DNA from: Succinivibrio dextrinosolvens DSM 3072
Lineage (GTDB): Bacteria; Pseudomonadota; Gammaproteobacteria; Enterobacterales; Succinivibrionaceae
DNA: 64,000 nucleotides
Direction of reading: 5' to 3'
Assembly: GCF_900167015.1 (NCBI RefSeq)
Contig: NZ_FUXX01000008.1
Location: forward strand, 1 to 64,000
Under the pieces are notes generated by a model, which had not been told where the DNA came from, searched no databases, and saw only the letters and a list, made by a program, of their open reading frames with translations. Shown one piece after another: positions 56,691 to 60,500 of this stretch (within the stretch, counting starts at the first letter, position 1; each line of letters begins with the position of its first letter). The translations under genes and the position numbers were made by a program.

Positions 56691-57338
56691 ATGAGTATAG
56701 ATGCAAATGCACTTACTAGCATTCAAAATGCTATCGCAAGCTTTTCTTCTTCAAATACGCAGAACTCTGTATATCAGAATAATGTTCAGACTCTATCTGA
56801 TGCCAGTGCTTCAGTAAGTACTGAAACCAGGTATAAAAAGGCATTCGAAGAGAAACTGAAAAAAGCTACTGGTTCTGATGAAGTTGAGATTAGCAAAGAC
56901 GCAATAGATGCTTTAAAGAATTATAACCTGAAGGGAAATGAGGATACTGAGAAGACAGATAAGTCTGATAAGACAGCGTCCTCTGATGTATCTTATACCT
57001 ACGATTACATGACTTTAAAGAAACAGCGTGAGCAGAATCTGGCAAAAATCGAGAAAGAGATAAATGATCGATATGCTCCTGCAAGTTCTGCTCAGGATGA
57101 ATCTCTCTTAGAGACAGAGGAAGCTTCGGAAGCTCCTGTAGAGACTTCGACAACATTAAATACTCAGCCACGTACTGATGAGCCCCAGAGTGTATCTGCT
57201 GATAATGAAAGTCCGGCAAATCCTCAGGGAAAACCTCAGACTATTTCTGATAATGCTACAAATGAGCAGACTCAGAATGATTCAAATATAAACGGCGCTG
57301 ATGAGATGTCGGAATCTGCTTCCTTAAGCAACGTATAA
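56691..57338 (+). CDS. Acidic low-complexity cytoplasmic protein of unknown function
   Basis: 215 residues with a perfect SD (TAGGAGG, 7 nt before ATG). No signal peptide or membrane segment. The N-terminal ~60 residues are Ser/Asn/Gln-rich. A short charged segment ('RYKKAFEEKLKKATGSDEVEISKDAIDALKNY', about 47-80) and a helix near 'YMTLKKQREQNLAKIEKEINDRY' could be structured. The last ~85 residues are Glu/Ser/Thr/Asn/Pro-rich and likely disordered. The 'VEISKDAIDAL' piece faintly recalls short motifs in flagellar and other secreted proteins, but I do not assign a family. Confidence 0.65.
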   Translation: MSIDANALTSIQNAIASFSSSNTQNSVYQNNVQTLSDASASVSTETRYKKAFEEKLKKATGSDEVEISKDAIDALKNYNLKGNEDTEKTDKSDKTASSDVSYTYDYMTLKKQREQNLAKIEKEINDRYAPASSAQDESLLETEEASEAPVETSTTLNTQPRTDEPQSVSADNESPANPQGKPQTISDNATNEQTQNDSNINGADEMSESASLSNV

Positions 57339-57367: not shown

Positions 57368-57440
57368 AATCTGCATCTGACTAATTCGGATGCAGATGAT
57401 AGGATAAAAGATGAAGCTTTTGGGCCTCATCTTTTTTTTA
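57368..57440 (+). terminator. Hairpin pair downstream of the acidic protein gene
   Basis: First a stem ATCTGCATC (57369-57377) / GATGCAGAT (about 57389-57397). Then a second structure with arms AAGATGA-AGC (57408-57417) and GGCCTCATCTT, running into a T-run at about 57431-57438. The second is the likely terminator. It lies against the 3' end of the convergent crr-like gene. Confidence 0.6.
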
Positions 57441-57974
57441 ATTTACTTTATCGTCTTCCAGGATAACCCATGTACATGGAGTCTGACCTGCTACAACCTT
57501 TCCTGATGCGCTGATAACTCTGGCAATTGGTGCTGATGAGTTAACAACAATCATTGAGGTAATAGTCGATTCAAGCTGATCTGAGACATTGTTTATATCA
57601 ATGTTTATTATGGGAGTTCCTGTTTCAACCTTATCTCCAATTCCGACATTTGAACTTAAACCTTCACCTGAGAAGTTTGAGGTTCCAATACCAAAAGTTA
57701 CGTATACTTCAATCCCGGTTTCAGTTCTGATTGCAAATGCATTATTTGAGGCAACAAGTCGTGAAACAATTCCTGAACATGGAGCCAGGATCTGAGAATC
57801 GTCAGGAATGATTGCTATACCGTCTCCAATAAGTTTTTCTGAGATAACCAGATCTGGTACTTCTCCTAATGGAACCAGAGTTCCTGATACAGGAGCCAGA
57901 AGCTCTAAATCTGCTTCGTTTTTAGCTTCATCAATAGCATCATCGTTCTTTGAAAAGAAAGAAAAAAGTCCCAT
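57438..57974 (-). CDS. EIIA-Glc (Crr)-like protein lacking both active-site histidines
   Basis: 178 residues. The EIIA-Glc fold is recognisable along its whole length: 'MGLFSFFSK', 'LELLAPVSGTLVPLGEVPD', 'KLIGDGIAI', 'ILAPCSGIVSRL' and 'GIEVYVTFGIGTSNFSGEGL'. In E. coli EIIA the phosphorylated His90 is in 'FVHFGIDT' and the supporting His75 in 'TNHAFS'. Here the aligned residues are Thr93 ('YVTFGIGT') and Asn78 ('SNNAFA'), so phosphotransfer should be impossible. The gene follows the degenerate ptsI in the classical ptsI-crr order, 88 bp apart. It could be a non-phosphorylatable regulatory EIIA, locked in the 'dephospho' state, or a protein under relaxed selection. Confidence 0.82.
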   Translation of the reverse strand: MGLFSFFSKNDDAIDEAKNEADLELLAPVSGTLVPLGEVPDLVISEKLIGDGIAIIPDDSQILAPCSGIVSRLVASNNAFAIRTETGIEVYVTFGIGTSNFSGEGLSSNVGIGDKVETGTPIINIDINNVSDQLESTITSMIVVNSSAPIARVISASGKVVAGQTPCTWVILEDDKVN

Positions 57975-58062
57975 AGATAATCCTAATCAGATAGTAATAG
58001 CGGTCACTGCCTAACAATAAATATTTCCAAAAGCATATCGTTCAAATTGTATCCAAATTCTT

Positions 58063-59718
58063 TCAGTAAGAGAATGAATTTAGAATATCGCTTAATTCTG
58101 CGCCTGTATAGCAGTTGACGATTTTGTTATATAGCTCTATGTCAAAGTCTGGCTGAATATCATGTTCCAGATTAAGTCTTTCAACCACGCCCTTAACCTT
58201 TTGAATATTATAAGTTCCTGTTACAAGATAAGATACTCCCATTTTGTAAAAGAATGGTAGCAGCTCTGTTCTGGCAGCAAATCTACCTGCAATTCCAAGT
58301 GTAATTCCTGCTTCATGTGCTGCTTTTGCGGCCATGGCAATCATTTTCGCAAGCACTGGTGTAAAAGCAGAATCAGCAGGACAAGGAGCTGAAGCGTATT
58401 CTGCCAGAGAGCTTGTGCCAAGAAGCATCATTGCGCTATTTGTTGCAAATGCAGGGGCAAGAAGAACGGCAGCGGGTGTTTCAACCATAAATGAAATGAG
58501 CATTTTTCCATGAGGAATCTTCTGTGCATCAAGCTCATCCTGACAGTCATTTGCAAGTTTAAACAGGTAATCCTTTTCGCTGATTCTTGTGATTAAAGGA
58601 AAGACAATGGTTATCTCCTGTCCTACAGAGGCTCTGAGCATTGCTCTGATTTCTTTTTTCAGAAGTGCTGTTCCAACTCCTGCTCCATAGCCCTTAAGAG
58701 GGCCATCATCATCTGTAATTACAGTAAACAAAGGTTTTTTATCATCGGCAAAATCGAAGGTTCTTGAGGTAAGCGGTGCATTCTTTTTTACTTTCGAGAA
58801 AATTTGATAAAACCTCTGGGTCATTTCCTCTTCTGTTGGTTCTGTCATGGAACTGAGGAAAAGAAACTCAGATCGGAGTAGACCTAAGCCGTTTGCAGTA
58901 ACCTTCTCCACGTCATCATTCGGACTGATTGCTCCTACAGCAGCTCCTAGTGTGATATTAAGAAGAGATTCGTCGTTGATTTGAAATAATTGAGAGTCTT
59001 GCCTACGCAGGATTCCCTGTGTCATATCCTCAGGAGGTTCAACAATTACAACCGCGGCATTACTATCGACAATGACGTAGGTTCCGGATTTTATGTTTGT
59101 TGCATCAAATACACCGAATACAGCAGGAATATTCAGTTCTCTTAAAACTACTCCAAGATGACTTGAATCTCTTCCTTCCTCAAGAACTACTCCCTTAACA
59201 AATTTCGTTTCTAAAGAAAGAAGCTGTGCAGGGGAAATTGTTCTTGCTATAAGAATAACGTCTTCTTTTAACTCTGGAAGTTCAATTTCATCTGCCTTAG
59301 AGTGTTCAAGAGTACGAATAAACTCATTAAGCAGAGAAAGAATCTCATCCTTATCGTTTTTAATATCTGTTTCTCTTTTAAAGAAGTTATCAAGATTTTC
59401 AATAAGTACTGTTCTTGCTGCCATGCTTGCAGAACAGCCACGCTTTATAAGTTCGAGAATTTCTATTTTATTATCTGCTGAGGTTATGAAGCCTGCTGTA
59501 GCTCCAAGCAGATCTCTAACTGAATCTTTTGCAGGATTAACAATCTGAAGAAGTTTCTGTGCAAAACGAGATGATTTTTTATTAAATCTGTCGATCTCTG
59601 TTTCAACATCATATGCAAAAATTTCATCGGTCGAATTTGTATTTTTTGTTTTTGAAATTGTTAAAGATGGGGCTGCACCAACTCCAGCTCCTGCAGATAC
59701 TCCAGATAATGTATACAT
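58063..59718 (-). CDS. PTS Enzyme I (PtsI)-like protein with a degenerate PEP site
   Basis: 551 residues from ATG 59718 (SD AGGAG). The longer frame to 59796 runs into cysZ. The EI fold is clear. The phospho-His is kept (His187 in 'GRDSSHLGVVLRELNIPAV'), as are Arg282 ('LLRSEFLFL'), Arg319 ('RTFDF') and Glu413 ('MVETPAA'). By eye alignment with E. coli EI, Asn454-Asp455 of 'GTNDL' is Ser-Ser (436-437), Arg465 is Pro446, Cys502 of 'GMCGE' is Ala477 and Glu504 is Arg479. The 'NPFLGWR' loop is 'GPLKGYG'. PEP/Mg binding and protonation should fail. It sits 8 bp after cysZ, with no ptsH. Confidence 0.82.
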   Translation of the reverse strand: MYTLSGVSAGAGVGAAPSLTISKTKNTNSTDEIFAYDVETEIDRFNKKSSRFAQKLLQIVNPAKDSVRDLLGATAGFITSADNKIEILELIKRGCSASMAARTVLIENLDNFFKRETDIKNDKDEILSLLNEFIRTLEHSKADEIELPELKEDVILIARTISPAQLLSLETKFVKGVVLEEGRDSSHLGVVLRELNIPAVFGVFDATNIKSGTYVIVDSNAAVVIVEPPEDMTQGILRRQDSQLFQINDESLLNITLGAAVGAISPNDDVEKVTANGLGLLRSEFLFLSSMTEPTEEEMTQRFYQIFSKVKKNAPLTSRTFDFADDKKPLFTVITDDDGPLKGYGAGVGTALLKKEIRAMLRASVGQEITIVFPLITRISEKDYLFKLANDCQDELDAQKIPHGKMLISFMVETPAAVLLAPAFATNSAMMLLGTSSLAEYASAPCPADSAFTPVLAKMIAMAAKAAHEAGITLGIAGRFAARTELLPFFYKMGVSYLVTGTYNIQKVKGVVERLNLEHDIQPDFDIELYNKIVNCYTGAELSDILNSFSY

Positions 59719-59726
59719 GGCAACTC

Positions 59727-60500
59727 CTAGTTGTTTTGGCGTATGTTCTGAAGAATATTTTTCTGTATTTCCAGATAATATTTTGTTCCTGCGCAAACTG
59801 CTGCAGGAGGAATTAGAATATTCAGAACTGGCACAGACAGAGACAGTGCAATCACTGTTCCAAAGCTTAAGGTTGCAACAGGATTGTTTTTAAGGTCTCT
59901 CTGCATCGAATTAAAAGGTATTTTGTGATTGTCATATGCATAGTCACAGTACTGAAGACAACCCATCCAGGCTGTAAGTCCGAACCAGAGAACGGGTGAA
60001 ATCAGGTTTAGTCCCGGAACGAAGGAAATGATCAGACATGCCAATGCCAGAGGCAGAAAAAACATCTGTTTTTTCAGTTCTCTGAAAAGTATTCTAGGAA
60101 CATCCTTTATCAGCTGAGGTATGGTCATATCCTCACCATGGCTCTGATTTAGTATCATTTCAGCCTTATCAGCAAGTAATCCATAAAAAGGAGATGCGAT
60201 TATGGTTGCCAGTGTTGAGAAGATATAACAGCTTACGAAGATAATCGTGATACTCAGAAAGGCTGAGATAATATATGCTAGAAAATTCAGGTATGAAGGG
60301 ATTTCTTCAAAGATGTTAAAAACAAGATCTTTGAGATTTGTGAACAGATAATAGCCTAGAGATGACAGCAGAATCAGATTAACTATAATTGGCAGGATAA
60401 TATAAATACGGCACTGCTTTGATAATGCCATTCTGATTCCATTCTTTAGATACGTAACTGCATCCATTATTCCTAATCTTACAGTTGTAGTCTCCTGCAT
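59727..60500 (-). CDS. cysZ: Sulfate transporter CysZ
   Basis: 257 residues with the CysZ/EI24 membrane fold: hydrophobic segments near 30-52, 68-95, 148-170 and 210-235, plus the signature 'ASPFYGLLADKAE' and 'LQYCDYAYDNHKIPFNSM'. It brings sulfate to the cysteine pathway. First gene of a cysZ-ptsI-like-crr-like unit and divergent from zipA. In E. coli the order is ligA-zipA-cysZ-cysK-ptsHI-crr, so this is the same ancestral region with cysK and ptsH missing. Confidence 0.9.
   Translation of the reverse strand: MQETTTVRLGIMDAVTYLKNGIRMALSKQCRIYIILPIIVNLILLSSLGYYLFTNLKDLVFNIFEEIPSYLNFLAYIISAFLSITIIFVSCYIFSTLATIIASPFYGLLADKAEMILNQSHGEDMTIPQLIKDVPRILFRELKKQMFFLPLALACLIISFVPGLNLISPVLWFGLTAWMGCLQYCDYAYDNHKIPFNSMQRDLKNNPVATLSFGTVIALSLSVPVLNILIPPAAVCAGTKYYLEIQKNILQNIRQNN

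Follow-up and report, generated by a model that had tools for sequence, protein, structure and literature searches.

The PTS is a textbook case of signaling by phosphate state. In Escherichia coli, the phosphorylated form of EIIA-Glc activates the adenylate cyclase CyaA. Within Enzyme I (EI), Cys502 is the acid that protonates enolpyruvate, Asp455 is a ligand of Mg, and Thr168 is the hydrogen bond partner of His189. In EI from E. coli and from thermophiles, four arginines hold the PEP phosphate, the ligands Arg296 and Arg332 together with Arg358 and Arg465, and the carboxylate rests on the backbone amides of residues 454 and 455 (PMC9856155). PEP, on binding, drives EI from the open to the closed state and brings His189 into the pocket (PMC8295985). 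In Vibrio cholerae, EIIA-Glc is tethered to the membrane by an N-terminal element irrespective of phosphorylation, and this element is required for membrane partners only (PMC6123446). PTS-derived systems that regulate rather than transport have been described, such as the PTS-Ntr and other permease-free regulatory PTSs (e.g., in Brucella; PMC2937029), and unphosphorylated EIIA-Ntr has a function of its own (PMC4314083).

Here we analyzed a locus of Succinivibrio dextrinosolvens DSM 3072 that encodes a PtsI-like protein and an EIIA-Glc-like protein, designated EI* and EIIA*, both altered at their active sites. The two form a lineage-wide pair. We consider it about an even chance that they are PTS pseudoenzymes with the roles of switch and regulator that arose, in the same genomic position, from an active ptsI-crr pair. 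No earlier description of such a dead pair was found in the literature searched.

Organization of the cysZ-EI*-EIIA* locus

The window, i.e., the whole stretch of 64,000 nucleotides that was analyzed, carries two uninterrupted open reading frames on the minus strand. One encodes EI*, a pseudo-Enzyme I with the PtsI fold (positions 58063..59718; start ATG at 59718; 551 amino acids), and the other encodes EIIA*, an EIIA-Glc-like protein in which both phosphotransfer histidines are lost (57438..57974; 178 amino acids). On the same strand lies the sulfate transporter gene cysZ (59727..60500; PF07264/NF003433), the first gene of a probable operon. Read along the minus strand, the order is cysZ, EI*, and EIIA*. 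The EI* ATG follows the cysZ stop after 8 nucleotides (nt), a gap of 88 nt separates EI* from EIIA*, and both genes are probably cotranscribed with cysZ. The zipA and ligA genes diverge on the other flank of cysZ, and pntAB converges on EIIA*. This arrangement is the E. coli order, ligA-zipA-cysZ-cysK-ptsH-ptsI-crr, minus cysK and ptsH; the absence of ptsH from the operon is a loss beyond those named in the original prediction for this DNA.

A terminator scan between EIIA* and the next gene gave no match; the AT-rich inverted repeat near 57434-57405 was noted by visual inspection alone. A 215-amino-acid protein with no Pfam match, encoded on the plus strand at window positions 56691-57338, also converges on EIIA*; it is kept in relatives and is fast evolving (dN/dS of 0.14 to 0.6).

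Active-site residues of EI* and EIIA*

EI* matched PF02896 (1.1e-33) and PF00391 (1.3e-15), with the HPr-binding N-domain PF05524 slightly under the cutoff, and scored 192.1 bits against TIGR01417, below the curated cutoff of 341.7. EIIA* matched PF00358 at 1.7e-33 and scored 139 bits against NF006962 (Crr), for which the cutoff is 212. Profile-profile alignment with hhalign spanned the full length of EI* and EIIA* unambiguously (E values of 6e-76 and 3e-52), in agreement with the full-length frames originally described, and ruled out misalignment of the active sites. The AlphaFold model of EI* (pLDDT of 65 and poor in the barrel; used for fold comparison only) matched both the EI C-domain (Z of 22 over 253 residues) and the N-domain (Z of 19). 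The predicted model of EIIA* matched the EIIA-Glc structures 2mp0 and 1f3g with TM-scores of 0.74 by query and 0.87 to 0.88 by target (Foldseek, 1e-13).

For EI, the profiles set 39 EI* sequences against 28 canonical EIs (that of E. coli, 8 same-group EIs of sister genera, and 19 second EIs of the family). His187 of EI* (59158..59160, minus strand, as for all residues below) corresponds to the phosphohistidine His189 of E. coli EI and is His in all 38 rows having the column. At the position of Asn454-Asp455, EI* has Ser436-Ser437 (58408..58413; Ser-Ser in 39/39); Cys502 is replaced by Ala477 (58288..58290; Ala in 38/39 and Val in 1) and Glu504 by Arg479, a change shared by 36 of the 39. Cys446-Pro447 aligns to Asp464-Arg465. 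Arg is lost from the Arg465 column, and 28 of the 39 sequences have an Arg one column earlier. The original prediction, which had listed His187 as kept and Ser-Ser, Pro, Ala, and Arg at these positions, was confirmed in every one of them by the profile-profile alignment. Two further losses, R358G and D508R, were found in 39/39, and the Thr168 column holds Phe or Leu in every row having it.

Other parts of the old active site persist. The PEP-phosphate ligands Arg296 (Arg282 in EI*; 58873..58875) and Arg332 (Arg319; 58762..58764) and the Mg ligand Glu431 (Glu413; 58480..58482) are each retained in 39/39, and Arg296, Glu298, Arg332, Asp335, Asp339, Lys340, Glu431, and Gly503 are invariant in the EI* set. 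The His189 loop is near-invariant (P165, G184, S187, H189, R195, and P200 at 97 to 100%). Newly fixed residues occur in the same active-site loops, namely, Asp349, Tyr357, Gly358, Ser454, Ser455, Ala502, and Arg508.

In EIIA*, the alignment placed Asn78 at His75 (57741..57743, minus strand) and Thr93 at the phosphohistidine His90 (57696..57698, minus strand; His positions in mature numbering), again as first read from the DNA. Among the 39 EIIA* proteins, His90 is lost in all and His75 in 38. F41I and F88Y (mature numbering) and R166W (gene numbering) are fixed; since F41I and F88Y alter the partner-binding face, the known partners of EIIA-Glc should not be assumed for EIIA*. A short hydrophobic N terminus is present in all EIIA* rows, judged from the sequence only. 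Taken at the level of sequence, the residues lost from both proteins support the conclusion that PEP-dependent phosphotransfer has been lost by the EI*-EIIA* pair.

Other PTS components in the genome and family

The claim that sugar phosphotransfer is gone stood for the pair but not for the cell. The S. dextrinosolvens genome encodes a second EI in which no catalytic residue is missing (C15, L144:2216-5384), an HPr that retains its His (C51), and an EIIA that retains both His residues (C44, L141:5293-6051), the last within a sugar ABC transporter operon. Since the active sites of all three are intact, phosphotransfer was lost by the pair and not by the cell. The suggested search for an intact ptsI/ptsH/crr set was therefore answered with an EI, an HPr, and an EIIA, and no EIIC of PF02378, the one EIIC family searched, was found in the genome. 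Under these circumstances, the C44 EIIA may belong to a PTS that regulates an ABC importer. The C44 operon also contains rbsA/rbsC-like genes, transketolase halves, and a sugar kinase gene, and in this genome, as in many others of the family, the second EI adjoins an OtnK-like (DUF1537-type) gene. Six genera (g2 to g6 and g8) have a complete IIA-EI-HPr-EIIC cluster in addition to the dead pair. Given these other components, the pair is not kept for want of another PTS.

A second EIIA-Glc paralogue without the histidines, having Asn at both His sites, was found in 11 Succinivibrio genomes (L142:4572-5072, G000:C77; also L122-L131). Most copies adjoin a LysR gene, and many of the genomes also have a gene for an AEC-family permease in line with the paralogue.

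Distribution and descent of the pair

A six-frame search of 57 Succinivibrionaceae genomes found EI* in 39 of them, representing eight genera, at 43 to 100% identity and with no internal stops; in every case EIIA* came next, in the same orientation. The pair occupies the slot ligA-zipA/cysZ-EI*-EIIA*/pntBA. Sister genera g7 and g9 have a ptsI-crr pair with the full set of catalytic residues in this slot, from zipA-cysZ to pntBA, in g7 together with ptsH, and the ancestral position proposed for the pair was thereby upheld. In the tree, all EI* sequences fell on one side of a branch with support of 100/100; this branch has a length of 2.7, which is very long, and the case for descent from the ptsI of that slot is therefore based on gene order and not on the tree. 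Outside the Succinivibrionaceae, no relatives were found at an E value of 1e-56 among 395 genomes of the order, and in a class-level search of 369 genomes, the S. dextrinosolvens genome alone matched at 1e-58. A contig scan with peptide patterns, which reach close relatives only, returned only Succinivibrio, Succinatimonas, and unclassified gammaproteobacterial records. In one Succinatimonas MAG, a Cas9-like frame lies downstream of the pair (L017:4227-6968). An assembly artifact was discarded as an explanation, the pair being present in isolates (S. dextrinosolvens ACV-10 and S. faecicola) and in a one-contig genome (G031); since the EI*/EIIA* substitutions recur across relatives, they are not sequencing errors.

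The gap between the cysZ stop and the EI* start is -23 to +19 bp in g1, g3 to g6, g8, and g10 and wider in g2, the single exception outside g2 being a gap of 92 bp in g1. The three genes cysZ-EI*-EIIA* are spaced by a few bases in seven of the eight genera, and no comparably tight cysZ adjacency was found in the lineages with catalytic residues. The adjacency may be the mere result of losing the intervening genes ptsH and cysK. One Succinivibrio genome (G044, L132:3566-4964) has cysZ and an intact EIIA* with 97 nt between them; no EI* remnant was found in the slot and no EI* elsewhere in the assembly, a single case in a draft of 86% completeness. In another genome (G056, L114:2756-4861), ptsI runs across three overlapping frames adjoining ptsH and crr; because the cyclase gene of this genome is also split, assembly indels are likely behind the broken ptsI.

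In g12 and g13, the search returned no EI match, only a PEP-synthase-like one. Both carry orphan crr genes (L070, L071, L077, L086, L087, L089, and L093), and the one in L077 has Asn in place of His75 and retains His90. An EIIA-Glc-family protein was found in 57/57 genomes, g12 and g13 included, and a cyaA-type adenylate cyclase in 55/57. This co-occurrence, persisting even where no EI was found, would suit a role of EIIA* in acting on CyaA, a class I adenylate cyclase, or on a different cytoplasmic partner of EIIA-Glc, with the link to cysZ accidental. However, EIIA* cannot be phosphorylated, and it is the phosphorylated form that activates CyaA in E. coli. EIIA* also retains the hydrophobic N terminus, which in V. 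cholerae EIIA-Glc is needed for membrane partners only (PMC6123446), and we regard such a role as unlikely.

Selection on EI* and EIIA*

Against a relative at a dS of 0.55, dN/dS was 0.016 for EI*, 0.052 for EIIA*, 0.016 for pntB, and 0.021 for pntA. Against more distant strains it was 0.015 to 0.025 for EI*, 0.045 for ligA, and 0.08 for zipA, figures that are only indicative at the high dS involved. Overall, the ranges were 0.025 to 0.052 for EIIA* and 0.016 to 0.024 for pntAB, and EI* was lower than ligA and zipA in the same comparisons. EI* and EIIA* are under strong purifying selection. The kept role envisaged in the original prediction is borne out by values of about 0.02 across relatives, not near 1, by the absence of frameshifts in EI*, and by substitutions fixed across eight genera. 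Slow decay of an unused ptsI-crr pair would explain why the catalytic residues are gone, but neither the dN/dS of about 0.02 nor the conserved pocket is compatible with it; no frameshift or stop occurs within EI* in any of the 39 genomes, identical substitutions are fixed across deep divergence, and we consider decay extremely improbable.

Mean entropy in EI* was 0.57 in the pocket loops versus 1.70 elsewhere (P of 1e-17). The pocket-loop value is also lower than the 0.88 of the canonical EI set, although the two sets differ in depth and the within-set contrast is the stronger one. Variability within EI* was greatest in the HPr-binding subdomain, with a mean entropy of 2.06. This pattern indicated that selection keeps the pocket and the His189 loop and has released the HPr interface. 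The pocket was remodeled and then fixed. An EI-like scaffold, as the protein had been described, is too weak a term, since the catalytic pocket and the His189 loop are the most conserved parts.

The released interface bears on the possibility that EI* serves as a phosphohistidine sink, accepting phosphate from HPr~P on His187 and so tuning a separate active PTS. His189 is invariant, and the genome has the HPr with its His and the second EI with all catalytic residues. Nevertheless, no part of EI* is less conserved than the HPr-binding subdomain, and the positions that correspond to HPr contacts in the EIN-HPr complex have changed in the 39 EI* sequences: M78 is Gly in 25, D82 is mostly lost, R126 is lost, and L85 is Asn in 35. 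A phosphate sink therefore appears quite improbable.

A new enzyme would also account for the conservation of the pocket. In that case, the His187 swivel domain and the remodeled pocket would run another reaction, with EIIA* as partner or target, as might be expected from the retention of both halves of the old active site (the His189 loop; R296, E298, R332, D335, D339, K340, and E431) and the fixation of new residues in the same loops. Yet the general acid Cys502 has become Ala and the Mg ligand Asp455 has become Ser, the hydrogen bond partner of His189, Thr168, is lost, and no reaction is known to use such a site. We view a new enzymatic activity as unlikely, if by no means negligible.

Discussion

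The loss of residues combined with the kept constraint suggests that the pair has been turned into a new kind of regulator or sensor. We infer a transporter regulator in EIIA* and a switch in EI* from the tie to cysZ, the constraint, the remodeled pocket, the cysZ-EIIA* arrangement of G044, the AEC-linked paralogue, and the N terminus. As part of a pseudoenzyme pair, EIIA* would be permanently unphosphorylated, probably tethered to the membrane through the short hydrophobic N terminus, and would bind its partner directly, by analogy with unphosphorylated EIIA-Glc in inducer exclusion. The likeliest partner would be a transporter, with the operon mate CysZ as the first candidate; the original prediction had put forward permeases, glycerol kinase, and adenylate cyclase as candidate partners. 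In EI*, the retained Arg296/Arg332/Lys340/Glu431 pocket would still accommodate an anionic metabolite, and the open-to-closed swing of the His189 domain would persist and serve as a signal to EIIA* (or CysZ) in place of the catalytic step.

The proposed mechanism is weakest at two steps, the link to CysZ and the ligand. The affinity of the pocket for PEP may be poor, given that Arg358, the Mg ligand Asp455, and most equivalents of Arg465 are gone. A sulfur-containing anion, or another anion resembling PEP, might be the ligand on Arg296/Arg332; in simulations, the sulfate of sulfoenolpyruvate shifts towards these two arginines (PMC9856155). It is conceivable, though doubtful, that cysZ-EI*-EIIA* forms a metabolite-sensing module in which a catalysis-free EI swing controls an unphosphorylatable EIIA and thereby sulfate uptake.

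In most of the Succinivibrionaceae, the first and the last soluble PTS components remain under strong selection, stripped of their phosphate chemistry. If the pseudoenzyme pair is confirmed, the conformational switch of Enzyme I and the binding surface of EIIA can operate without phosphotransfer, and the locus would provide a natural pair for testing phosphotransfer-free PTS function. Annotation will label the two genes ptsI and crr, implying sugar uptake that they cannot support.

EI* resembles PtsI (TIGR01417/NF008382) in fold, domain order, His189, Arg296, Arg332, Lys340, Glu431, and gene position but differs in N454S, D455S, C502A, R358G, E504R, and D508R, in the loss of the R465 position and T168, and in its unconserved HPr-binding subdomain. 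EIIA* likewise shares the fold, the hydrophobic N terminus, and the gene position of EIIA-Glc (Crr, NF006962), whereas His75 and His90 are replaced and F41I, F88Y, and R166W are fixed. The PTS-Ntr, whose EIIA has a function when unphosphorylated, as is proposed for EIIA*, still phosphorylates and has neither the fixed loss of both active sites nor the cysZ operon. Inducer exclusion (LacY, MelB, MalK, and GlpK) shares the mode of action proposed for EIIA*, in which a transporter is bound directly and without phosphate; however, its state is switched by phosphorylation, whereas that of EIIA* would be permanent or set by EI*.
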